This document shows, one piece after another, positions 151 to 40,562 of a stretch of DNA of 45,954 bases (the stretch's first letter is position 1; each line of letters starts with the position of its first letter). Both the position numbers and the translations under genes were made by a program. The DNA is taken from positions 1-45,954 of IMG/VR virus record IMGVR_UViG_3300021962_000192. The stretch is one strand, 5' to 3'. The stretch is from a virus. The notes beneath the pieces were generated by a model. The model was given only the letters and a program-made list of their open reading frames with translations, searched no databases and was not told the DNA's origin.

Positions 151-1650
151 TCAAGACTTACTTGCTCTTAAAAGTTCAATAAATTCTGTGTTGTCTATAA
201 AGTATTGAGACACTGAATCAAGATACTCAATATGGGCTTCAAAATCTGCCTTTGCAGATTCTTCTTGTCTATACTGTCTTAGTTCTTTCGTTGCAGTTTC
301 TTTAGAGATGTAACCCAAACCAGCAAGAATCCAGTTATATATAGGCACGCCCGCATACCCCATCATTCTGCCCAGTTCATCTTCTAAAATTGCCTTGTGT
401 TTTGATGATTCTAGAATTCTCAAAGCCTGCTCTGTACGTCTTTCCGGCTTCGATATATCTCTCCAAAACTCGCTATCTGTTCTTTGACTTGCGTAATGAA
501 CACTAATAAAGTCTTTGAACCCGTCGTATAAACGACTAATTAATTTATTATAAGAACTTACCGAAGCCCAATTGCAAGTTGACTCAATGTCTGACTTAAG
601 GTAGTTGAGAATGAAATACTGTAGTTGAATTAGCGTCCCATGGATGCTCGTTGCTTCGAGTGGTTCAAGGAATGATGAAGATAGCCCTATGAATAAACAG
701 TTATTCTTCCAAACTTCTTTCAACTTGCCGGTGTCAAAATCTATGAATTTAATTGGTTTAATTTCTTGACCCAGCAAAGTTTCAATTTCTTTTTGTGCGC
801 CCTCTCTGTCCGTGTAGTGAGAATCAAAAACATAACCGCAACCCATTCTTTCTTGGGTTGGCACCATCCACATCCACCCTGATTTTTGAGCGAAAGCAAC
901 CGTTACTGGGTCAATACGGAAACCCTCTTTGTGTTCAAGCAAGAAAGGCATAGCGGTGTTTACTGGTAGATATTTTGAGTACGACTCCCACTCGATGCCC
1001 ATCTTTTTGGGCAGGATTCTACTGAAGCCAGTGGCATCAATAAAAAAATCTGACTTGACAACTTGACCAGAATCCAAAGTAACTGACTCAACATCTCCCG
1101 ATTGAGTTATTGAGCAATCAACTACTTTGCCTTCAATTGCCCTAACTGAATTACATCGTTTTTTAAAATATTGCCCGACCAGATGTCCATCAAAATGAAG
1201 ACCGTAATGATTGTCGCTGACGACATCGTCATCTTTCATGTAAAACGGAGATAAAGATTTATTTGTCAAGTACCCGTTTTTGCTAGCCATATGTATTGGT
1301 ATGTCGTTTTTGACAACATGCATTAATGGGCGATAGGTCCCATACTCGAGTGGTGTGGTGCCGTCGATTGGCGCTATAAATTCGTGATTTAACTGCTTCC
1401 AATTAACGTAATGAATAGAAAGTTTAGGAGTTGCGTCTGTTTCCTTAAAAAAGTCAGATTCATTACATCCGTAATTAAAATCAGAGTTCTTGAGAATACT
1501 GGTAAGGAAGCCTGTACTTGATTCTCCGGCCCCAATTATTCCCACAGCCTTCGATTCAATGAGGGTCACCTCGTGTTCTGGGTGCACCTTACTCACCATA
1601 AACGCCGCCAACCAGCCGGCAGTGCCCCCACCTAAGACGGTTATTTTCAT
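151..1650 (-). CDS. Flavin-dependent tryptophan halogenase-like protein
   Basis: The 499-residue protein has the landmarks of flavin-dependent halogenases: an N-terminal FAD-binding GGGTAGWLAA (residues 7-16), a GAGESST segment (40-46), and the halogenase signature GWMWMVP (258-264, family WxWxIP). Lys76 (in ATPKLSIHYVNW) and Glu332 (in FLEPLEATSIH) align with the catalytic Lys79 and Glu346 of PrnA as I recall them. Length is normal for the family. These enzymes use FADH2 from a reductase, O2 and halide to chlorinate or brominate an indole or similar ring; the substrate here cannot be read from sequence. It is the only minus-strand gene in the left half and is divergent from the tail-fibre operon, as expected for an independently acquired accessory gene. 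No flavin reductase is visible, so the host presumably supplies one. Confidence 0.88.
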   Translation of the reverse strand: MKITVLGGGTAGWLAAFMVSKVHPEHEVTLIESKAVGIIGAGESSTGFLTSILKNSDFNYGCNESDFFKETDATPKLSIHYVNWKQLNHEFIAPIDGTTPLEYGTYRPLMHVVKNDIPIHMASKNGYLTNKSLSPFYMKDDDVVSDNHYGLHFDGHLVGQYFKKRCNSVRAIEGKVVDCSITQSGDVESVTLDSGQVVKSDFFIDATGFSRILPKKMGIEWESYSKYLPVNTAMPFLLEHKEGFRIDPVTVAFAQKSGWMWMVPTQERMGCGYVFDSHYTDREGAQKEIETLLGQEIKPIKFIDFDTGKLKEVWKNNCLFIGLSSSFLEPLEATSIHGTLIQLQYFILNYLKSDIESTCNWASVSSYNKLISRLYDGFKDFISVHYASQRTDSEFWRDISKPERRTEQALRILESSKHKAILEDELGRMMGYAGVPIYNWILAGLGYISKETATKELRQYRQEESAKADFEAHIEYLDSVSQYFIDNTEFIELLRASKS

Positions 1651-1714: not shown

Positions 1715-1900
1715 ATGGCTTTTACTTTCCCTGCAAATCCATCTAATGGTGACCGGGTAGTTTTAGCTGGTAAGGAATATCAATTTACGAGTCCTAAATG
1801 GTTGCGTTACAGTTCTGTAGTTATTGATGGTGGAATAAGTACCACATTGATACCTGCAGATGGGCCAACCGTAGATGGAGGAGATTACGATGGCTTTTAA
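1715..1900 (+). CDS. Short virion-associated protein (hypothetical)
   Basis: The 61-residue protein opens MAFTFPANPSNGDRVVLAGK and then has YQFTSPKWLRYSS. Small phage proteins of the form 'MAFTFPxxPxxGxxxxxxGxxYxWxxxKW' are common just upstream of, or at the N-terminus of, tail-fibre genes and are thought to be structural. It ends in a Gly/Asp-rich tail and overlaps the following fibre gene by 11 bases, so the two are translationally coupled. The start is set by the upstream -10 box with no ribosome binding site. I recognise the pattern, not a named family. Confidence 0.65.
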   Translation: MAFTFPANPSNGDRVVLAGKEYQFTSPKWLRYSSVVIDGGISTTLIPADGPTVDGGDYDGF

Positions 1901-3215
1901 GAGAATTCTTCTGCGACGTGACACAGCGGCTAACTGGACATCGGGTAACGCCGTACTTGCTTCTGGTGAAATTGGCTACGAGACAAACACTGGCAAGTTT
2001 AAGATTGGTAACGGCTCTACGGCGTGGAACTCTCTTGGATATTCGATTGCCTCGAACATTTCGTCGGCCACCCTTAACGACCTTGGTGACGTAACTATCA
2101 CGTCTGTTGCTAATGGAGACTTCCTTCGATGGAATGGCACCGCCTGGGTCAACGACGCGGTCAACCTTTCAACAGACACAATTGGCTCTTATGTTGAATC
2201 GCTTGTTGCTGGTACCGGAGTAACTCTTTCCAACAACTCTGGCGAAGGCGCAACACCGACAGTTGCGGTAAATACTTCGGTTATTCAAGCACGGGTCTCG
2301 GGTGTTTCTGATACAGAAATTGGCTACCTCGATGGCGTAACTTCAGCAATTCAAACACAGATTGATGCCAAGGCGCCACTTGCTTCTCCAACATTCACTG
2401 GCACAGTAACTCTGCCAGACAACACAGTTGCACTTGGAACAAAAACAACCGGTGATTATGTAGCCGCAATTACCGGCGGTACGGGTGTTGCTTCAACAGC
2501 CGCAACTTCTGGCGAAGGCACAACGCACACACTGTCGATTGGCCAGGCTGTAGGCACAACCGATAATGTAACTTTTGCTGGCGTAACTGCTGATGCAATA
2601 CGAGTTGGAGTTACTGCTGCTGGCGAAATTGACACAACATCAGGTAATTTGACAATTGATTCAGCAGGCGGAACCGTAACAGTCGATGACAACTTGACGG
2701 TAACTGGAAACTTGACCGTTTCTGGGAGCACAACTTCGATAAATACCGAAACCCTTACTGTTGACGACAACATCATTGTTCTTAACAACAATGTCACTGG
2801 CGCACCAACAGAAAATGCTGGCGTGGAAGTTGAGCGTGGGACTTCGGCAAATGTTTTCCTTAGATGGAATGAAGCTGATGATAAATGGCAACTGACAAAC
2901 GATGGCACAACTTACTACGACATTGCTTCGTCCAACGATGTTGCAATCGCAACAGCTTTGACCGTTGACAACCTCACCGACACAACAATTGTCTCTGCGG
3001 CCAATGGTGACTACCTTAAGTACAATGGCAGCGCTTGGGTTAATGACCCAATCAATCTCGGCACCGACACGGTAGGCAACTATATGGCTGGTGTATCAGC
3101 CGGAGCGGGTATTTCGGTCACCCACACACCAGGAGAAGGCTCAACAGCGACAATCGCAGTAAATACTGCGATTGCGGCAGATGACCAGTTCGTCCTCGCA
3201 GGACAGATTTTCTAG
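1890..3215 (+). CDS. Tail fibre protein with Mtd-type N-terminal domain
   Basis: The start is ATG 1890, which has GGAGGAG 7-13 bases upstream; an in-frame ATG at 1875 lacks a good site. The 441-residue protein begins MAFKRILLRRDTAANWTSGN and continues LASGEIGYETNTGKFKIGNG. This matches the N-terminal domain shared by major tropism determinants and many phage fibres (Mtd_N type). The central part has the fibre-shaft motif EIGYLDGVTSAIQTQIDAKA followed by PLASPTFTGTV, seen in trimeric fibres. A stretch near residues 60-130 (DLGDVTI...NGDFLRWNGTAWVND) is repeated near 365-425 (NLTDTTI...NGDYLKYNGSAWVND), an internal duplication. It probably forms a trimeric fibre or baseplate appendage. Confidence 0.82.
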   Translation: MAFKRILLRRDTAANWTSGNAVLASGEIGYETNTGKFKIGNGSTAWNSLGYSIASNISSATLNDLGDVTITSVANGDFLRWNGTAWVNDAVNLSTDTIGSYVESLVAGTGVTLSNNSGEGATPTVAVNTSVIQARVSGVSDTEIGYLDGVTSAIQTQIDAKAPLASPTFTGTVTLPDNTVALGTKTTGDYVAAITGGTGVASTAATSGEGTTHTLSIGQAVGTTDNVTFAGVTADAIRVGVTAAGEIDTTSGNLTIDSAGGTVTVDDNLTVTGNLTVSGSTTSINTETLTVDDNIIVLNNNVTGAPTENAGVEVERGTSANVFLRWNEADDKWQLTNDGTTYYDIASSNDVAIATALTVDNLTDTTIVSAANGDYLKYNGSAWVNDPINLGTDTVGNYMAGVSAGAGISVTHTPGEGSTATIAVNTAIAADDQFVLAGQIF

Positions 3216-3239: not shown

Positions 3240-3608
3240 ATGGCAACATTCAGTAAAGAACTACTTTCAGAAAGCACAAACGGCCGGGCAAAAAAAGTTG
3301 TGGCGACAGCAATTGCTTCTTCCCCAACCCTGATTCATACTGGTCCGGTCTCAACAAGTGTTTTGGACGAAGTTTGGATTTATGCACAGAACAATCACAC
3401 AGCGGACGTTGCTGTGCGAATTGGTTTTGGTGCCGCAACAGACCCTGACGACATCATTGAATACACAGTTAAGACAAAAGGTGGTTTGTATCTCGTGGTT
3501 CCGGGCTTGCTTCTCAAGGGCAACGCAACCCCACTAACGGTTGTCGCCGCTGCTGGTACTGCAAACGTTATATCTCTGTCAGGATATATTAACCGCATTA
3601 CGGCATAA
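3240..3608 (+). CDS. Small virion structural protein (hypothetical)
   Basis: The 122-residue protein has an AGGAG ribosome binding site eight bases before its ATG. It is rich in beta-strand-forming residues with alternating hydrophobics (for example DEVWIYAQNNHTADVAVRIG and GGLYLVVPGLLLKGNATP), suggesting a beta-sandwich. Proteins of this kind and size sit between fibre genes in many phages and are assumed to be fibre-associated. No catalytic motif is visible. Confidence 0.6.
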   Translation: MATFSKELLSESTNGRAKKVVATAIASSPTLIHTGPVSTSVLDEVWIYAQNNHTADVAVRIGFGAATDPDDIIEYTVKTKGGLYLVVPGLLLKGNATPLTVVAAAGTANVISLSGYINRITA

Positions 3609-3611
3609 GTT

Positions 3612-4610
3612 ATGTCGGAATTTATTAAACGCGGAGCTGTTAGTCAGGCCGTAAGTGGCGGTCCACTTGCGCCGCGCCACAACAGAAATAATAAAACAGA
3701 CGGTGTATTTGCCTATTGGTTTGCGCAAGGCAAATCAATTCTTGCTGCGTTTATAGATGCATTTACTAGAAGTGATAGTGCAAGTTCTATTGGCGCAAAT
3801 GTTGTTGAATGGATTCCAGAACGTGGGACCTGGGGTATCAGTTCAAACGCCGCAACGACGAGCACTGCCGCTTCTTCATATCCCATCGCCACATTTAATG
3901 CGGGCACAGTAGCCGCAACGGTTAAGGCAACCCTTCCTGCAGTTAGGTCTGCTGGTGCTGGTGTTGCATTTTGGGTTACGGATGCAAATAACTGGTGGGC
4001 TGCAGTTGCTGACAAAGTAGATTTCTCGGGCGCACCATACAATTGCCCAAGTGGTGGTTCAATCACTAGTGGTAGTAATTGCCAATATACATATGGTGCC
4101 GTAGGTGGCGGACCATACACTGCGGGTGGTCCATTTGCTTATTGGGCTTGCGGTTCCGGAACAAATTTTGGCAACGGATGTTGGTATTACGATGGTTATA
4201 CTTGGGTGCGATTTGGAGACGGGTATATTGCTTATGGCTATCAGCCTCCCTATACACAACCCGCCCCTTATAACTACACCCCAACAACAGTAAACTACAC
4301 GGGTACTGCTACAAGCTTTAATCGTTCTGATTTTAAAATTATCAAAAGCACGGCAGGCACAGTTTCTACTGTTTCAAGCCACACGGTAGCCACCCCAACG
4401 GCAACTACATATTTGTCTTACATCCAAGCCCAAACTACGGCTAACGGGGTAACAATTACGGCCGCAGATAGCGCTGCACCAAATACCGTGACCACTGTTA
4501 ATGTCGCCGCTTCGACACCAGTTCCAGCAGAAAAATTTGGAATAGTGTATGCTCCGGCGACAAATTATGCGAACCCCAAGGTAGAACAAATTGAGTACAC
4601 CCCATTATGA
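3612..4610 (+). CDS. Tail/receptor-binding protein with jelly-roll lectin-like domain
   Basis: This is a 332-residue protein. Residues 48-140 read like a concanavalin/LamG-type jelly roll: FTRSDSASSIG, then WGISSNAA, then AGVAFWVTDANNWWA, the 'xF...D..N.W' pattern of carbohydrate-binding sandwich domains in phage appendages. A middle segment (about 140-220) is extremely rich in Tyr, Gly, Trp and Pro with four Cys, unlike the flanks. The C-terminal part is again beta-rich. The gene follows the preceding one by three bases. A role in host-surface recognition is inferred from domain type and position. Confidence 0.65.
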   Translation: MSEFIKRGAVSQAVSGGPLAPRHNRNNKTDGVFAYWFAQGKSILAAFIDAFTRSDSASSIGANVVEWIPERGTWGISSNAATTSTAASSYPIATFNAGTVAATVKATLPAVRSAGAGVAFWVTDANNWWAAVADKVDFSGAPYNCPSGGSITSGSNCQYTYGAVGGGPYTAGGPFAYWACGSGTNFGNGCWYYDGYTWVRFGDGYIAYGYQPPYTQPAPYNYTPTTVNYTGTATSFNRSDFKIIKSTAGTVSTVSSHTVATPTATTYLSYIQAQTTANGVTITAADSAAPNTVTTVNVAASTPVPAEKFGIVYAPATNYANPKVEQIEYTPL

Positions 4611-4770
4611 TTCCTATGCCGTTGAACGTTTGGCAATCTGCAAAGAGTGCCCGCGTTATTTTAAACTTACTTCAACCTGTAAAGAATGCGGTTGCTTTAT
4701 GATAGTTAAAGCACAACTATCTTCATCTAGTTGCCCCTTAGGAAAATGGAGCCCACATGGCACACAATAG
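4591..4770 (+). CDS. Small Cys-rich zinc-binding protein (copy 1)
   Basis: This short gene is easily missed. The frame opens after a stop at 4582-4584, and the only plausible start is TTG 4591 (AAGG about ten bases upstream); it ends at TAG 4768-4770. It gives 59 residues. The core is ICKECPRYF, TCKECGCFM, SSCPLGKW, that is CxxC-x9-CxxCGC plus a later Cys, a zinc-knuckle pattern. The protein encoded at 27819-28061 has the same spacing and the same ending (CPLSKW), so the two are paralogues. Each copy lies just upstream of a 2OG-oxygenase cluster. It overlaps the genes on both sides (20 and 14 bases). Function unknown. Confidence 0.65.
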   Translation: MSTPHYDSYAVERLAICKECPRYFKLTSTCKECGCFMIVKAQLSSSSCPLGKWSPHGTQ

Positions 4771-5026
4771 AACAGTTTCATTTAATACAAATTCAGAAGT
4801 CTTAGGTAAAAAGATTTCGTCTCTTTTGTTTTATGTTGATATTGCCAAAGAGAGAATTATCCAAGACAGTGAGTACCCAGCAACCAACGATATAGTCTGC
4901 TCGATTGATGAAGCCCGCCATTTGTTGCTTGCTTTAAATAATCTTTTCACCGTAGAGCCATCTGAGGTGACTCCGGCGGACAGTTCCTTTGATTTGTTGG
5001 AATTTAGCGATACGGTCCCCCAATAG
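4757..5026 (+). CDS. Hypothetical protein
   Basis: The 89-residue acidic protein has a GGAG site five bases before the ATG and overlaps the zinc-protein gene by 14 bases. It begins with a polar stretch, then has a helical middle (VCSIDEARHLLLALNNLF) and an acidic tail. No recognised domain. Its position in the operon between a tail protein and the oxygenases gives no firm clue to function. Confidence 0.6.
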   Translation: MAHNRTVSFNTNSEVLGKKISSLLFYVDIAKERIIQDSEYPATNDIVCSIDEARHLLLALNNLFTVEPSEVTPADSSFDLLEFSDTVPQ

Positions 5027-5061: not shown

Positions 5062-5070
5062 ATGGGCGCC

Positions 5071-5469
5071 ATGGAAGCAAAAATAATTCCAAGCGCAAAA
5101 GGACCAGTTGTCTTATTTGAAGACTTAGCCCTGCATATGACCGACACCCAAGGACTTACATACGCGGTAAATACTACACCTTTTCTTCTTCAAAACCTAG
5201 AAAAATCTTTGATTGACCATTTCGAATCAGTAACTAATTTTGTAAAAGAAAATTTAAAATCCAAAAATCCACTGCAATCAAATTTAGTTACTGACGCAAT
5301 AGGCGCAATGGATGATTTCTTTAAGTTTGCTTATAAGGACTATATTGGCTACCTAAGACTTCAAGCAATGGATAAAGAGCCGGATTTATCTGGCGAGAAG
5401 TTAGATGCCGCAGTTCGCAGAATTTGCCGAGACGACATCAATCATTTCTATGCGCAAAAAAAATCATGA
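5071..5469 (+). CDS. Hypothetical protein, first gene of oxygenase operon
   Basis: The predicted protein is mainly alpha-helical and has no recognised domain. Two in-frame starts exist: ATG 5062 and ATG 5071 (132 residues). I prefer 5071 because of the spacing from the -10 box at 5056-5061. The C-terminal region is charged (AAVRRICRDDINHFY). It overlaps the next gene through ATGA, which starts a run of four coupled genes. A role as partner or substrate of the downstream oxygenases is possible but unsupported. Confidence 0.6.
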   Translation: MEAKIIPSAKGPVVLFEDLALHMTDTQGLTYAVNTTPFLLQNLEKSLIDHFESVTNFVKENLKSKNPLQSNLVTDAIGAMDDFFKFAYKDYIGYLRLQAMDKEPDLSGEKLDAAVRRICRDDINHFYAQKKS

Positions 5470-6083
5470 GAAGAGAACCTTCCGACGTTAGATACGATAA
5501 GCCAGTAGACAATTGCGTACCACCGTCTGTAGTCGTCTCTGATGTTTTCACTCCAGATGAATGTCGTAAAATTATAGAACTTGGAAATTCCGAGAAACTA
5601 GACGCCGCAAAAGTTAGGGGTGGCGCTGTTATGACTCAAATCAGAAGTTCGGAGTTAAGGTTTATCGAGCCCGTAAATATGAATGAAGTCGGTTGGATTT
5701 TTGAAAGACTCAAAGAAATTATTGACAATGTAAATGACCGAATCTATGAGTATCAATTGCATTATTTTACCCCACCTCAATTTACTCATTACAAAGTTGA
5801 TGATTATTATGACTGGCATATGGACCTACTAATGGGTAAACCATGTGAGGCATTATTTATGAGGAAACTTTCAGCAACAGTATTTTTGTCAAATCCAGAA
5901 GATTTTACTGGAGGCGAATTAATGATAGGTCGTAATTCTGACGGCAGTCATGAAGAGATAATTGAAGCAAAGCAAGGAGCCATGGTTTTGTTTCCTTCAT
6001 TTATTTGGCATAAAGTCAATACGGTTAAATCAGGAGAGCGTTATTCGTTGGTTGTTTGGAGTGAAGGGGATAAATTCAGGTGA
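5466..6083 (+). CDS. Fe(II)/2-oxoglutarate oxygenase, prolyl 4-hydroxylase/PKHD type
   Basis: The start is ATG 5466, overlapping the preceding stop (ATGA). The 205-residue protein is a complete double-stranded beta-helix oxygenase. Iron ligands are His118-x-Asp120 (in YYDWHMD) and His182 (in SFIWHKV); Arg192 (in SGERYSLVVW) would bind 2-oxoglutarate. The conserved FTGGELMI and GAMVLFPS strands are typical of PKHD-type hydroxylases. Such enzymes hydroxylate prolyl, lysyl or other side chains using O2 and 2OG. The natural substrate is unknown; it is close to tail-fibre genes and in an operon with other oxygenase-like proteins. Confidence 0.9.
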   Translation: MRREPSDVRYDKPVDNCVPPSVVVSDVFTPDECRKIIELGNSEKLDAAKVRGGAVMTQIRSSELRFIEPVNMNEVGWIFERLKEIIDNVNDRIYEYQLHYFTPPQFTHYKVDDYYDWHMDLLMGKPCEALFMRKLSATVFLSNPEDFTGGELMIGRNSDGSHEEIIEAKQGAMVLFPSFIWHKVNTVKSGERYSLVVWSEGDKFR

Positions 6084-6865
6084 GCGAAGAACAAAGCGAA
6101 CAAGTAGTTTATTGGGCGCCATGGATAGACAAATCTACTGGTCAAAGAGAAAACAAATCAACGGTTAGCGAATGGCTGTACAAGGAACCATCCAGCGTGT
6201 GGCAGGAGTTGTTGGACAATAAAGACCAAAATATTATTTCCAGCAAATTAACCACTACATATTTACAGTGTCCAGCAACCAGAGAGGCACTTACTAATGT
6301 TTTTGTGGTTAGATGCCCATGTACTTCGACTGCAGAAGTATTAATAAAAGAAAATAGTCAAATTGAAAAAGTAGAGCAAGCCTGGGGCACTCAATCACAA
6401 TGCGAAATAAGTATGGCCCATGCGCCGACGTGCTACGACCAACTTCTCATTATTGTGGGTTACCCTTTTATCTTTTTTAGCGAAGAGTCGCTTTTTATGA
6501 GGTCAACATCACCCTGGTTCCATTCAGCACCACATTTTTCATTAGGAGGCATAGTTCCTGGCCTCTACGATATTGGTCGTTGGTTTAGGCCTTTAAATTT
6601 TGAATACAATCTCTGGCCCAGAAATAATAAATTTACAATTATGGAGGGCGAACCAATGGCTTATTTGGAATTTTCAACAAATAAACCAGTTGTTTTTAAA
6701 AGATTTGAACTTACACAAAAATTGATTGACCTCGCTTCTGATTCAATCCACACTAGGACAAAACAAACAAGAGGTTTAAATGGGTTGTGGAATAGATATA
6801 AGATGTTTGACGAATCTTACGGTAAAAAAATTATTGTAAAAGAAATCAAATCTAATTTAATATGA
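6080..6865 (+). CDS. Conserved hypothetical protein within oxygenase operon
   Basis: The GTG start at 6080 overlaps the previous stop (GTGA), and the stop overlaps the next start (ATGA), so translation is tightly coupled. The 261-residue protein is rich in aromatic residues and Pro (WAPWIDKSTG; SPWFHSAPHFSLGG; YNLWPRNNKF) and has scattered Cys (QCPATRE, RCPCTS, SQCEIS, PTCYDQ). I do not recognise a named fold. Fixed placement between two oxygenase-like genes suggests it acts with them, for instance as a scaffold or substrate-recognition partner. Confidence 0.7.
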   Translation: MSEEQSEQVVYWAPWIDKSTGQRENKSTVSEWLYKEPSSVWQELLDNKDQNIISSKLTTTYLQCPATREALTNVFVVRCPCTSTAEVLIKENSQIEKVEQAWGTQSQCEISMAHAPTCYDQLLIIVGYPFIFFSEESLFMRSTSPWFHSAPHFSLGGIVPGLYDIGRWFRPLNFEYNLWPRNNKFTIMEGEPMAYLEFSTNKPVVFKRFELTQKLIDLASDSIHTRTKQTRGLNGLWNRYKMFDESYGKKIIVKEIKSNLI

Positions 6866-7386
6866 TTTTTCTTGAACGTTCAGAATTTATTGTTAAAAAT
6901 CTTCCCGAGATTGAAAAATCTTTAGAATTTGCTCGCTTTAAATTCAAGGATGTAATGGGGACAACCGAATATACAAAAGCCTACGGTATTTATAATCTCT
7001 TTGCCTTACTTCATTCAGATGCTCTTTTTTATCAAATATTTATCGATTTGCGCGAGCGAGTTAGAACTGTTTTAAAACTGGAGCCGAATCAGCCTCTCTG
7101 GATGCAAGCGTGGATGAACGCTGACAGACCAGAAGGAGTCTTAGATTGGCATGACCATATGTGGCCATGGCACGGGTATATATCTATTGACCCCAAAAAT
7201 ACGAACACAGTTTTTGAAGACAGAGTAGTTAAAAATGTTCCGGGTCAAATTTATTTTGGTGAAGGTCATAATAGACATAAAGTTCAAGTCCTGGAACCGT
7301 ATGAAGGTTTAAGAACAACAATTGGATTTGATGTAACCAACGTAGTTGGCGAAAGGACAAGATATGTCAGTTTTATCCCGTTCTAA
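6862..7386 (+). CDS. Probable Fe(II)/2OG-dependent oxygenase (divergent)
   Basis: The 174-residue protein overlaps its neighbours on both sides. A likely metal site is LDWHDHMWPWHGYI: His97-Asp-His99 (HxH, or Asp98 as ligand), with His139 in HNRHKVQV and Arg151 in GLRTTIGFDV. The order 'first His pair, GQIYFG strand, second His, R-TIGFD strand' follows the oxygenase jelly roll. The acidic ligand of the classical HxD triad is not in its usual place, so catalysis is less certain than for its neighbours. Confidence 0.6.
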   Translation: MIFLERSEFIVKNLPEIEKSLEFARFKFKDVMGTTEYTKAYGIYNLFALLHSDALFYQIFIDLRERVRTVLKLEPNQPLWMQAWMNADRPEGVLDWHDHMWPWHGYISIDPKNTNTVFEDRVVKNVPGQIYFGEGHNRHKVQVLEPYEGLRTTIGFDVTNVVGERTRYVSFIPF

Positions 7387-7984
7387 TTCCAAGGAAGAGC
7401 AATATACGCAAGGCGACCACATCGGCGTATGGGATAATTTTTTTACCCCCGAGCTGTGCAATAAATTTATTGCATTTTATGAATATCGCTCCAAGGTTGC
7501 GTTCAAACGAAACGACCATACAAAGCAAGACTCATCGGTGAATATTGGCACAGAAGAAGCAATGCGACAAATTATGGTCGATAGTTCAATGAGCGATGAT
7601 TTTCTGCCAGAATTTCTAGATAAATTTTGGGGAACTTGTTACCCAATGTACGTTGAGAAACACCCACATTTAACAAATGCAGTTTCTTCGCTTGTTATGT
7701 CAACTATAAAGATTCAAAAAACACTTCCTCAAGAGGGTTATCATGTTTGGCATTGCGAGCAAGCAACGATAGAAACTGGGCGCCGGATGGCGTTTATTAT
7801 TCTTTACTTGAACGATGTTCAATCTGGCGGCGAGACAGAGTTCCTATACCAATCAGCAAGAGTTGAGGTTTCTCAAGGGCGGTTAATTCTCTCTCCGGCT
7901 GCTTATACCCATATGCACCGTGGTAATCCGCCATTAAGCGGGCCAAAATATATTCTCACAGCGTGGCTTGAATTTGAAAAATAG
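7364..7984 (+). CDS. Fe(II)/2OG oxygenase, prolyl 4-hydroxylase-like with HxE motif
   Basis: The start is ATG 7364 (AAAGGA eight bases upstream), overlapping the previous gene by 23 bases; a TTG at 7346 is the alternative. The 206-residue protein carries His130-Cys-Glu132 (YHVWHCE) instead of HxD, the strand SGGETEFL, and the distal His in TYTHMHRG-like sequence (YTHMHRGNPP, His183/His185). Lys195 in GPKYILTAW probably replaces Arg as the 2OG ligand, as it does in prolyl 4-hydroxylases. HxE variants are active in some subfamilies. It ends the ATGA-coupled operon. Confidence 0.85.
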   Translation: MSVLSRSNSKEEQYTQGDHIGVWDNFFTPELCNKFIAFYEYRSKVAFKRNDHTKQDSSVNIGTEEAMRQIMVDSSMSDDFLPEFLDKFWGTCYPMYVEKHPHLTNAVSSLVMSTIKIQKTLPQEGYHVWHCEQATIETGRRMAFIILYLNDVQSGGETEFLYQSARVEVSQGRLILSPAAYTHMHRGNPPLSGPKYILTAWLEFEK

Positions 7985-28064: not shown

Positions 28065-28964
28065 ATGATTTTAAAAAACGGAACGTACGATAAACATACG
28101 ATAATCTACGATACCGATGGCCCAATATCGGTATTTACTAATGTAAAAATTAAAAACAATCCTCACAGCAACGACTTTTTCCCTCTTTGCGGGACCTTTG
28201 TACCAATAACCTGCACACCGCACTATTTTCATTTTTTGAAAGAGTATTACGGATTTTATATTTATTTTAAAAATAAATATGATGCGGATGCGAAGTATCT
28301 TAAAATAGAAAATAGTAGCTATTTTTACCCTGCGTATCAAAATATGGCTCGCGTATGTGGATACTGTTATGACCAGATTTCTGATGGGTTTACATTTAAT
28401 GATTTTTCTAACGCTAATTTAGAAATAGAAAAACTTATTATTTTATTCGATTCTCAAAAATGCATTACTGGTTCTTTGTACAGTCAACCTGACTACTTAA
28501 AAACACCTGGAATAAATACGGCGCTGAGAAATAGCGTTCTTTCAAAAATAAAAAAAACTACGCATAGCAAAAAATTATACCTATCGCGCAAAATAGTTTC
28601 AGAGCATTTACCTAATTTTCCTGTTGATGGCTCTAACGAGCGCCTTCAAAACTGGAAAAACGAACAAATGCGCTTGCGATACGTAGAGCCCACGTTAGAA
28701 GACGGAGTAGAGCAAAAATATTATGATGAAGGTTATGAAATTGTCCAGTTATCCGGTATGGATATTTTAGAACAGGCATCTATGTTTTATAATGCTGAAA
28801 AAATTGTCGGTCCAATCGGTACAGCTTTTTATAATGGTATATTTTCAAGCGAGCAAACTGTTTTTGATGCTTTAATGCTTAATCCAAATTATTTTTATGC
28901 TTTTGACGTAGACATAAAAACAGTTCTTCCCAACGCAGTATTTAGGTACAAATATGATTATTAA
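28065..28964 (+). CDS. GT61-like glycosyltransferase (DUF563 type)
   Basis: This is a 299-residue protein. The N-terminal part has HYFHFLKEYYGFYIYFK, comparable to the 'HWxxDxLPRL' region of GT61 enzymes. The central part has KLYLSRK, and the C-terminal part has YEIVQLSGMDILEQASMFYN followed by KIVGPIGTAFYNGIF, the conserved 'xS..eQv.lf..A..ivG..GagL.n' block of the family. GT61 members transfer pentoses or GlcNAc to glycans or proteins. It overlaps the following oxygenase gene by 11 bases, so the two are likely to act together. The sequence is more AT-rich than the tail genes. Confidence 0.72.
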   Translation: MILKNGTYDKHTIIYDTDGPISVFTNVKIKNNPHSNDFFPLCGTFVPITCTPHYFHFLKEYYGFYIYFKNKYDADAKYLKIENSSYFYPAYQNMARVCGYCYDQISDGFTFNDFSNANLEIEKLIILFDSQKCITGSLYSQPDYLKTPGINTALRNSVLSKIKKTTHSKKLYLSRKIVSEHLPNFPVDGSNERLQNWKNEQMRLRYVEPTLEDGVEQKYYDEGYEIVQLSGMDILEQASMFYNAEKIVGPIGTAFYNGIFSSEQTVFDALMLNPNYFYAFDVDIKTVLPNAVFRYKYDY

Positions 28965-30276
28965 AGAAGAGGCTTACCCATTACCTGATTTAGGTGTTGA
29001 GCCGCATCTGGTAAAAAATTTTTTCCCCGAAGATTTATTTTTGAAAGTAAAAAAACAAATTCAAGATACTGGCATGGGCACCGAAAAGGGAACATACTAT
29101 CCAATGATGGGTAGATGGGGTTCTGGAATCACCCCAAGTAAAGACGTGGAAGACTACGTTCTAAACGCAGTAAGAAAAATTTTTAATAATGACACCCTTG
29201 TCCCCGCTTATCACTACACAGTAATGTATCAAAGGAAAGATGGATGTATCCCCAATCTCTGGGAGCATTTAGACCAAAATGGTTCTCAAATATCAATAAA
29301 TATAGCCATAGAAAATACGGCAAATTGGCCGTTAATAGTTGACGGTCAAGAATTTTACCAAAACCCAAATGACGCTGTTATTTTTTGCGGACAACAGCAC
29401 TCACATGCAAGACCTCCATACCCAACAAACGATGAAAATTTGTGCACAACTCAACTATTCATGCATTTCAGCACCCCAAATCATTGGATTCAAAATCAAG
29501 CTTTCGGGACCATTCACGATTATGGGCTAGATGGTGATATAAGGTTTTTTAACAAAAATAGATACTTGCCCCTCCCGGACCCTCCGTTTAACCAACCAAT
29601 AGGAAAAGACCAAGACTATTCCGGGGTTTTGCATTATTACGACTTGATTGTCGGTGATTTTTTTGACACCGAATCAGAGTTGAGTGAATTAAATATTTTC
29701 TCTGTTCAAAAACTAGCTCCAGGTATTTTGCTTTATAAAACATCCAAAAAGTCAGCCCGCATTATAAAAGGTTTAGTTCAAAATGCGATATTTAAACAAT
29801 GGCGTCAAGCAGAAGTTGTTTTTAGCAACAATCAAACAGGAGTTGATTATAGTGCCCGGAACTGTTTCAACTATTTTTTGAACGAAAAGCAAGATGATTG
29901 CCATCCGCAAGACCCAATCGTTAGGGCAAAAAAATCTTTAGAATTAGGGATAAATGCAGTTGTTGAAAATTACAGAAAATTACATCATCTAACTCCTTTA
30001 AATTCTGACTCAACGGTACTTTTGAGATATGAGGAAGGCGGGATGTTTCATAATCATTTTGATGTAGCCCCGTCATTCCCTCGCGTTGTTTCTGTATCTA
30101 TGTTCTTGAACGAAGACTTTACTGGTGGCGAATTAGAATTCAAAGAATTCGGTCTTAAGGTAAAACCGGAATCAGGCGATATTTTGGTTTTCCCGTCATC
30201 TTTTCCTTACATGCATGAAGTACGCCCAGTAACTATGGGAATCAGATATTCAGTGGTTAAATGGTATAGTTTTTGA
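28954..30276 (+). CDS. Two-domain Fe(II)/2OG oxygenase, prolyl 4-hydroxylase-like
   Basis: The 440-residue protein carries two oxygenase folds. The C-terminal one is complete: His368-x-Asp370 (HNHFD), FTGGELEF, GDILVFPSS, His421 (YMHEVRP) and Arg431 (MGIRYSVVKW), typical of prolyl 4-hydroxylases. The N-terminal one has His105-x-Asp107 (LWEHLDQ) and a distal His149/His151 (QQHSHARPPY) but no clear Arg, so it may be a divergent catalytic or substrate-binding copy. It overlaps the glycosyltransferase gene. Hydroxylation followed by glycosylation of the nearby TPPV tail protein is a reasonable hypothesis. Confidence 0.85.
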   Translation: MIIKEEAYPLPDLGVEPHLVKNFFPEDLFLKVKKQIQDTGMGTEKGTYYPMMGRWGSGITPSKDVEDYVLNAVRKIFNNDTLVPAYHYTVMYQRKDGCIPNLWEHLDQNGSQISINIAIENTANWPLIVDGQEFYQNPNDAVIFCGQQHSHARPPYPTNDENLCTTQLFMHFSTPNHWIQNQAFGTIHDYGLDGDIRFFNKNRYLPLPDPPFNQPIGKDQDYSGVLHYYDLIVGDFFDTESELSELNIFSVQKLAPGILLYKTSKKSARIIKGLVQNAIFKQWRQAEVVFSNNQTGVDYSARNCFNYFLNEKQDDCHPQDPIVRAKKSLELGINAVVENYRKLHHLTPLNSDSTVLLRYEEGGMFHNHFDVAPSFPRVVSVSMFLNEDFTGGELEFKEFGLKVKPESGDILVFPSSFPYMHEVRPVTMGIRYSVVKWYSF

Positions 30277-38965: not shown

Positions 38966-39166
38966 ATGGGCAAGAAAAAAGGAAAAGGCGGCTCCAAGTC
39001 GAGTACAGGCAGGACCCGAACAAATCCTTTGACTGGCCAAATCGAAACAATTTCCGGAACTAAAGCAGGCAAGAAAAGACACCGCACTTCAATGGGCGAC
39101 CCTCTACGAACTCACGACCTTCATGGTCCTGTCGGAAAACCAAAAAAGAAAAAAGAAGAGTTTTAA
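38966..39166 (+). CDS. Small basic protein
   Basis: The 66-residue, strongly basic protein starts MGKKKGKGGSKSSTGRTRTN and ends GKPKKKKEEF. Probably disordered and nucleic-acid binding. It converges with, and overlaps by four bases, the minus-strand oxygenase gene. Confidence 0.55.
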   Translation: MGKKKGKGGSKSSTGRTRTNPLTGQIETISGTKAGKKRHRTSMGDPLRTHDLHGPVGKPKKKKEEF

Positions 39167-39939
39167 TTTTTCCCGAATTGGGTAATTACAACATCACCGG
39201 ATAGGTGTTGTCTTGGAATGGCATCACTACTAATTAAGATTCTCTGGAGCCATCTATCTGTGCCGTCGTAACGAGCCACGAATGGTTTGCGCCCATGAAT
39301 TGTATTCCGGTTGTCAATAACCAATAAATCCCCGTCTTCCAAGACAATCTCTTTTATCGACGCCCGCACAGCTTCTGAGAATTTATCTAGTGCTGCTTGT
39401 GCTTCACTGTCGGCCCCGCGCATCAATGCTTCGTCATAGACCATAGACCACCGCTTGTCTCGACAAATCAGTACAGAAGTAAACAGTTCACAATCTGGTT
39501 GCCCCTCTAATCTGAAACTGTCGTCAAGGGAGGTTATAAATACCGGTTGTTGTAAAATCTTGATTGTTTCTTGGTCGAGCTTCCCTAATATGTCCTCAAG
39601 CTCGGCATAGGTAGTAATTGCGTTCTTGTCGCCGCGCAAACAATAAAGCATCAAGTGTGTTGGCTTGTAGGGATGGAATGCGGTCTCGGTGTGTAGCTGC
39701 AGTTCAGTCTTTGAGGATGTAGATATTTGTTTAAGTTCCGTTTTTTGAATCGGGATAATGTTTTGAATCAGTCGCCCGTTCTGTTCTTGTTTGTACCCAA
39801 CTACCCTGCCTAAAGTCCCCCCGAATTTAAGCAACTTATCCCGAAGAGAAAATATCTCGGGTATCTCAGAATTTAGGTCTAATGGGGTAGGCGGAATAAC
39901 CTCCCCACCAAAAAAATTTTTTACGAGATTGACAGTCAT
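39163..39939 (-). CDS. VioC/AsnO/clavaminate synthase-like amino-acid oxygenase
   Basis: The 258-residue protein has the clavaminate-synthase-type 2OG site: His83-x-Glu85 in LHTETAFHPY (family 'xHTEDAFHPYR'), the adjacent LMLYCLRGD strand, distal His215 in DNRNTIHGRKPFVARYDGTD, and Arg229 in DRWLQR, 14 residues after the His as in CAS. VioC, OrfP, AsnO and CAS hydroxylate free Arg, Asn or related amino acids at C3. The protein is about 70-100 residues shorter than these, mainly at the N-terminus. It is paired with another oxygenase on the minus strand, apart from the plus-strand operons. Confidence 0.82.
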   Translation of the reverse strand: MTVNLVKNFFGGEVIPPTPLDLNSEIPEIFSLRDKLLKFGGTLGRVVGYKQEQNGRLIQNIIPIQKTELKQISTSSKTELQLHTETAFHPYKPTHLMLYCLRGDKNAITTYAELEDILGKLDQETIKILQQPVFITSLDDSFRLEGQPDCELFTSVLICRDKRWSMVYDEALMRGADSEAQAALDKFSEAVRASIKEIVLEDGDLLVIDNRNTIHGRKPFVARYDGTDRWLQRILISSDAIPRQHLSGDVVITQFGKN

Positions 39940-39953
39940 AGGTATTTGACATT

Positions 39954-40562
39954 TTACCTATATGGCTGTCCGTGCGCCCAAGCAACCAAGCAGTAACGAA
40001 CGCCACTTGTAATTGGCTTGACCTCGTGCAATGTCCATGAAGGCCAAATACTGGCAACCCCCGCTTCCCGACTTATCTCAACTTCATCGGGCCCCGCATG
40101 AATAACCACGTCCCCGCCCTCATAGCTTTCAGACTTGCTCAACTGGACGCTCATGGAAAGTTTCCGATTTATCCCCGCCCCACTAGACCAATCGGTATGC
40201 CGCGCATATTTCCCTCCCTGCCGGTATTCGAGCATCCGGATTGAAGGAATCTCTTCATAGGAGAGCCCAATGAAGTTACCCCGATTAAAAGCCTCGTAGA
40301 GCCTTCCAGTTACGTTCAGACCGTCGGAAAAGGTAATCCCTCGTAGGTCAGCCAAATATTCGGTACAGACCCTTATATCGCCTCCTGACGACTTATCTGG
40401 CCCGTGAACCATCCCTTTTTTAGATATCCCGTAGGAAAGGCAGTAGTCAATGATTTGTTGGCACTCAGCCTCCGAGAAGACCCTAAGCCATGAAAATAAG
40501 GAGTTGTTCTCAGCTTTATTCATACCAGTCCTAAATGTGCCGAAATCCGCGCTTAAATCCAT
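39954..40562 (-). CDS. PKHD-type Fe(II)/2OG hydroxylase
   Basis: The 202-residue protein is canonical: His122-x-Asp124 in GGKYARHTDWSS, strand EGGDVVIH, distal His179 in SWTLHEVKPITSGVRY and Arg189. The N-terminal FSWLRVFSEAECQQIIDYC is the family's usual opening. A ribosome binding site AAAGG lies six bases before the start. With the VioC-like gene 14 bases downstream it forms a two-gene oxygenase operon, the third oxygenase site in the window. Confidence 0.9.
   Translation of the reverse strand: MDLSADFGTFRTGMNKAENNSLFSWLRVFSEAECQQIIDYCLSYGISKKGMVHGPDKSSGGDIRVCTEYLADLRGITFSDGLNVTGRLYEAFNRGNFIGLSYEEIPSIRMLEYRQGGKYARHTDWSSGAGINRKLSMSVQLSKSESYEGGDVVIHAGPDEVEISREAGVASIWPSWTLHEVKPITSGVRYCLVAWAHGQPYR

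Follow-up and report, generated by a model that had tools for sequence, protein, structure and literature searches.

What does a flavin-dependent halogenase do beside the tail fibres of a phage? The question is raised by the IMG/VR virus record IMGVR_UViG_3300021962_000192, analysed here over positions 1 to 45,954 (the window), in which the open reading frame (ORF) at 151-1650 lies on the minus strand, antisense to a tail-fibre operon. A reading of the letters alone (the sequence-only reading) had taken this gene for a probably active halogenase and had asked whether its target is a free indole, a host signal or a Trp or Tyr of a virion protein. Phage halogenases themselves are already known, VirX1 of cyanophage Syn10 (PDB 6qgm) being one; what is new here is the genomic context. 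Our literature search found no published link of a phage halogenase to tail modification. Comparison across viral contigs indicates about four separate arrivals of unrelated halogenases at the same receptor-binding tail cassette, by recruitment or by replacement, a recurrence which suggests, without proving, that the receptor-binding apparatus is what they modify. We put the probability that the substrate of the halogenase is a product of this phage's tail cassette at a little below one half (about 0.48).

The gene is complete, with an ATG start and exact bounds, and its product matches PF04820 (Trp_halogenase) at E 7.5e-90, with 302 bits against a curated cut-off of 21, and PHROG 2928, 'tryptophan halogenase', at E 1.8e-105. 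Its solved relatives are RebH, PrnA, PyrH, Tar14, BrvH, SpH1 and VirX1, and residues were assigned by alignment with RebH, PyrH, Tar14, SpH1 and VirX1:

151..1650, minus strand: flavin-dependent halogenase, 499 residues (ORF list, PF04820, PHROG 2928, PDB relatives RebH, PrnA, VirX1 and Tar14)
1615..1632, minus strand: flavin adenine dinucleotide (FAD)-binding GGGTAG, residues 7-12, conforming to the dinucleotide-binding pattern GxGxxG in the alignment
1423..1425, minus strand: catalytic Lys76 (RebH K79, PyrH K75), the same residue in all rows of 18- and 19-row alignments
859..876, minus strand: tryptophan motif WMWMVP, residues 259-264, a WxWxIP variant (alignment)
655..657, minus strand: active-site Glu332 (RebH E357, PyrH E354; alignment)
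646..654, minus strand: Ala333-Thr334-Ser335 in place of the Ser-Thr-Gly of characterised enzymes, a departure from FxxPxxSxG (PMC8407142)

The FAD motif, Lys and Glu described earlier as intact hold up on careful alignment, where Lys76 and Glu332 are both present, and the WxWxIP-type motif is there as GWMWMVP (residues 258-264), with Val replacing Ile; the halogenase of one related locus (L031; L numbers are our own locus labels) has WMWMTP at this position. What the sequence-only reading overlooked is a change in the tunnel motif FxxPxxSxG, a later diagnostic which stands outside the PF04820 family definition and has been described as a mark of active halogenases, a change at its G being tolerated (PMC8407142). 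The window protein reads FLEPLEATS, with Ser to Ala and Gly to Ser, and conforms to the broader motif FX[DE]PX[EFL]. Because viral rows most often read PLEATSI (84) and cellular rows mostly PLESTSI (86, drawn from a scan for the pattern EPLEAT, so that any bias favours the viral form), the Ser-to-Ala change is, on the aligned rows, a signature of the viral clade and not the decay of a single gene. Across that clade the Glu332 equivalent is nearly invariant.

The gene is also maintained by strong purifying selection, since nonsynonymous divergence (dN) from the 94%-identical copy in L003 is 0.032 against a synonymous divergence (dS) of 0.98 (dN/dS about 0.03), and the same gene occurs in six further viral contigs (L002-L007) at 72-100% identity. 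Motifs and selection together make enzymatic activity plausible, and the earlier 'probably active' survives in that more guarded form, with the altered tunnel motif set against it. Free tryptophan is an unlikely substrate because the window protein, on alignment, lacks the Trp1, Trp2 and Trp4 substrate-binding motifs: SSTGFL replaces ATxPxL/ATFSxx, APID replaces HxFG/HPFE, and YAGVPIYN only partly resembles YHGLPPYS. These motifs bind free tryptophan and typify group A and B halogenases (PMC8269204).

On the opposite strand, tail genes lead into a conserved cassette, headed by the tail protein of 3612-4610, that includes two 2-oxoglutarate (2OG)-Fe(II) oxygenases:

1875..3215, plus strand: tail fibre with a major-tropism-determinant N-terminal domain (PF18454, E 1.5e-12; tail PHROGs)
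3240..3608, plus strand: small tail-array protein, 122 residues, which relatives also have, repeated within their tandem fibre array
3612..4610, plus strand: predicted receptor-binding tail protein, CBM66/lectin-like jelly roll (AlphaFold2 model, VIA matches)
4029..4310, plus strand: Tyr/Trp/Cys-rich insertion in that jelly roll, residues 140-233, of low model confidence (composition, AlphaFold2 model)
4757..5026, plus strand: cassette protein c4757, 89 residues, order kept in relatives
5062..5469, plus strand: cassette protein c5062, 135 residues, order kept
5466..6083, plus strand: 2OG-Fe(II) oxygenase (PF13640, E 2.2e-14; phrog_61); the ORF opens at 5424, and the ATG at 5466 fits the length of relatives
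6080..6865, plus strand: cassette protein x6080, 261 residues, immediately before the halogenase in L040-L046, L244 and L253
6862..7386, plus strand: cassette protein y6862, 174 residues (phrog_2696)
7346..7984, plus strand: second 2OG-Fe(II) oxygenase (PF13640, E 1.9e-8), whose slot a halogenase occupies in L039-L046
8021..11359, plus strand: large cassette-closing protein, 1112 residues; the downstream gene is conserved in L035 and L040-L046

The order of this cassette is largely conserved even where tail proteins share only about 40% identity, and a halogenase is found at it in three arrangements. It stands upstream and antisense in the window, L003, L004, L007 and L031; downstream and antisense, flanked by two oxygenases, in L005 and L006; and on the same strand, in or directly behind the operon, in L039-L046, L244, L253 and L245, its start codon abutting or overlapping the x6080 stop in L040-L046. 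On the longer contigs (L002-L004, L007) fibre-type genes flank the upstream antisense gene on both sides, and in L078 and L079 the halogenase lies inside tail-fibre operons, in one case behind a collagen/S74 fibre.

When the tail proteins of the viral contigs were clustered at 65% identity, a halogenase was present in some members of all four clusters with the full cassette and in none of the 15 that lack it (Fisher p 0.001, a further cluster with x6080 but no halogenase being included, and clusters being taken as independent with shared ancestry uncorrected); nor was one found when 23 whole contigs bearing distant tail relatives were examined. Given that the Fisher test ignores shared ancestry, it is the four halogenase lineages that carry the argument. 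Each cluster has its own: the window type, the L040/L244 type, the L043/L131 type and, in L039/L245, a member of the VirX1 clade by the tree. Forcing the four into one clade was rejected in a 55-row tree (p-AU 2e-51 in the approximately unbiased test, for a group defined after the first tree had been seen). It is from these separate lineages and the rejected single clade that repeated recruitment, or replacement, appears to follow.

The tail protein at 3612-4610 is most likely a lectin-type receptor-binding tip. Its AlphaFold2 model, built from 15 sequences with a mean predicted local distance difference test (pLDDT) score of 67, has a confident jelly roll broken by a low-confidence insertion which carries the aromatic and Cys-rich stretch; the jelly roll and the Tyr/Trp-rich segment picked out by the sequence-only reading are thereby borne out, the former as a prediction and the latter with a peak of 14 in 60 residues. 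VIA matches reach Z 16.1 for CBM66 (4b1m), 16.0 for the central fibre gp20 of mycobacteriophage Douge (8zdp) and 15.2 for the receptor-binding domain of TM4 gp23 (9n6a), with a root-mean-square deviation of 2.9-3.2 over 169-174 residues for the two phage proteins (Z 15.2-16.0); plain Foldseek is weaker (E 7.6e-3), and fold likeness alone does not establish function. With the receptor-binding fibres of Douge and TM4 the product thus shares a predicted fold, a comparison of the fibre only, the link to modifying enzymes coming from the present analysis. In L002, L003 and L004 tandem fibre modules surround the halogenase, in which an Mtd_N-type fibre, a protein of about 122 residues and a glycine-rich adhesin-like protein are repeated with divergence.

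The mechanism that we propose draws on what is established for PrnA and RebH and on the reviews cited here. FADH2 supplied by the host and O2 would give a flavin peroxide; attack by a halide would yield hypohalous acid, which would travel through the tunnel to Lys76; and Lys76 with Glu332 would halogenate a Trp or Tyr, whose electron-rich aromatic side chain would most likely belong to the lectin-like tail protein or to an adjoining fibre. The linked 2OG-Fe(II) oxygenases would hydroxylate in parallel, and the outcome would be changed binding to the actinobacterial surface or changed stability of the fibre tip. Activity, halide, protein substrate and effect on binding are what we infer for this enzyme; the host origin of FADH2 would follow from the lack of a flavin reductase among the window genes scanned by profile. 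A broader picture is held more tentatively: tailed phages might carry a modular oxidative-tailoring cassette, made up of 2OG-Fe(II) oxygenases, a halogenase of changing ancestry, x6080 and y6862, which would add halogens and hydroxyls to the receptor-binding protein of the phage itself and so tune attachment. We know of no virion on which this kind of post-translational modification is recorded, nor of a viral halogenase with an assigned native substrate. The recurrent tie to one receptor-binding tail family offers a concrete and testable candidate. If true, phages would edit their attachment proteins chemically with halogens and hydroxyls, an extra layer of host-range control, and could be a source of enzymes able to halogenate whole proteins. 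For VirX1, a review reports test aromatics only (PMC8407142).

Several observations weigh against a tail substrate. The Tyr/Trp content of the tail protein does not follow the presence of the halogenase (8.6% with, 7.8% without), and since relatives lacking the enzyme are about equally rich, the aromatic segment to which the sequence-only reading had pointed is a weak argument and by itself no evidence for the target. The cassette occurs with no halogenase in the 31.6 kb searched in L034, L035 and L038, all within one cluster, so the halogenase is a frequent but optional member. Most contigs are fragments, and many loci repeat one virus within a single sampling series; the partners x6080 and y6862 are uncharacterised; and we know of no EPLEATS enzyme with a known substrate or activity data. 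The antisense gene of the window could be independently expressed cargo, and many other phage halogenases lie in metabolic regions beside psbA, hli and talC.

The last of these points lead to the reading of the gene as a moron in a permissive site, where the substrate would be a free host metabolite (an indole, a phenol or a signal) and the tail locus would merely tolerate its cargo. We regard this as rather unlikely. It would fit the antisense orientation in the window, the shift of the gene from one side of the same cassette to the other (upstream in L007, downstream in L005 and L006), the cyanophage relatives among metabolic genes and the many free aromatics accepted by VirX1 (PMC8407142). 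However, in three of the four lineages the gene shares the strand of the tail genes and lies within the cassette or immediately behind it, mostly abutting or overlapping cassette genes, all four sit at one tail type with none at the 15 related clusters lacking the cassette, and the free-tryptophan motifs are lost. Tail linkage with four lineages makes a virion protein a much better motivated target than the letters alone could, and free tryptophan is disfavoured. A doubtful alternative is that the scaffold serves a flavin-dependent monooxygenase or an oxidase, acting for instance in Trp or Tyr hydroxylation, given Ala at the Ser position of FxxPxxSxG and Ser at that of the halide-side Gly; the former change is fixed over most of the viral clade, and the cassette partners are oxygenases. 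The catalytic Lys, the Glu (nearly invariant in the clade) and WxWx(V/I)P are nevertheless retained, the broader FX[DE]PX[EFL] motif is kept, and the WxWxIP-type motif has been suggested to block monooxygenation (PMC8407142). Still less probable, in our judgement, is that the cassette alters the host envelope or a glycan (such as an exported aromatic or a glycolipid) and that the tail protein reads the change: the window encodes a glycosyltransferase 61 and a TauD dioxygenase and the tail protein is lectin-like, yet those two genes are more than 20 kb away and the conserved cassette holds no recognised envelope-synthesis gene. Action on the tail cassette itself is the reading we prefer.

Where the enzyme comes from was addressed with quick-mode trees of 237 and 143 rows. 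The window protein groups with those of L078 and L079 (46-50% identical) in an all-viral clade nested within a large, mostly viral one, and the tryptophan halogenases, the SpH1 group and the VirX1 clade fall elsewhere. VirX1 (Syn10 gene CPUG_00131, 100% match) and the window protein are in separate clades in both trees; in the large clade that holds the latter no assayed member is known to us. A few cellular sequences (Rhodobacterales, Devosia and a few others) are nested there. Recent uptake from a present-day host was rejected, the nearest cellular relatives found (Rhodobacterales, Devosia) being 32-39% identical and one side clade among viral rows.

Among known enzymes, VirX1 shares with the window protein its Pfam family, a phage origin, the catalytic Lys and Glu and the WxWxIP motif, but identity is about 27%, EPLESTG stands for EPLEATS, and the setting is a T4-like cyanophage instead of an actinobacteriophage-like tail array; its own clade includes the halogenases of L039 and L245, located at the same tail cassette as the window type. 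RebH, PrnA, PyrH and Tar14 have the fold family, FAD motif, Lys and Glu in common with it, whereas the window protein is without Trp1, Trp2 and Trp4 and has Ala-Thr-Ser for Ser-Thr-Gly. MibH (5uao), of the same family, halogenates a Trp of a lanthipeptide and not free Trp (PMC8269204), as we propose for a peptide-borne residue here, but its profile match is weaker than that of any other listed solved relative, and it serves antibiotic synthesis, not a virion. Enzymes of the BrvH/SpH1 type (6frl, 6y1w) also approach the window protein, as BrvH's group C is without the Trp4 motif (PMC8269204); SpH1 EPIESTN and 9luq EPLESTS come near the viral EPLEATS but keep the Ser, and the type forms a separate, mostly cellular clade.

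Variation at the active-site Glu is found in a few phages. Cyanophages S-PM2 (L014:5001-6476), Sf-CH3 (L015:5001-6455) and Syn1 (L020:4001-5437) have Gln there (FLEPLQATSIH), a residue that reportedly inactivated a related enzyme, and their halogenases may be impaired or altered. Actinomycetia phage DSL-LC01 (L013, OQ999401.1) has Asp in the alignment; its distant halogenase lies close behind collagen-like fibre genes, near a WhiB gene, and the phage is a possible experimental system.

Beyond this tail family, large aquatic phage contigs (L081, L089, L093, L096, L099) bear as many as four different halogenase genes, with several genes for 2OG-Fe(II) oxygenases in between and, in some cases, a GroEL gene close by, which suggests, from gene neighbourhoods, a general association of the two enzyme types in viruses. 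Two of these arrays, without the tail protein, contain x6080 (L093, between two halogenases, and L099), which makes it a neighbour of halogenases also in phages that lack a tail protein of the 3612-4610 type. It has an invariant CPA and a near-invariant DIGxW motif (window:6080-6865, L093:15655-16389), and its model matches dUTPases only moderately (Foldseek E 1e-3, Z 8.8, 9% identity). A homologue of y6862 (window:6862-7386) in Syn10 (L018:7977-8531) lies at a distance of 2.4 kb from VirX1, and several other viral halogenases also have one nearby. The window-like locus L237:151-9547 packs about eight 2OG-Fe(II) oxygenase-like genes, four of them Pfam-confirmed, into 9.5 kb around and downstream of x6080. 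An invertible segment bearing the antisense halogenase was considered and rejected, there being no convincing inverted repeats around the gene in the window, L003, L007 or L005, and matches to promoter consensus for a dedicated halogenase promoter are at chance level only.

The window is a linear viral record and probably a fragment, and searches of phage records with the tail, x6080, helicase and tape-measure proteins returned no close relative of this phage. It encodes a WhiB protein (PF02467) and an Arthrobacter-phage-like helicase, and its top tape-measure match among those listed is Pontimonas phage phiPsal1; together with the mycobacteriophage-like tail fold these point to an actinobacterial host, presumably among freshwater actinobacteria. 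Elsewhere the window encodes further modifying enzymes, namely the glycosyltransferase 61, the TauD dioxygenase and an additional pair of 2OG-Fe(II) oxygenases (28065-28964, 39163-39939, 28954-30276 and 39954-40562).
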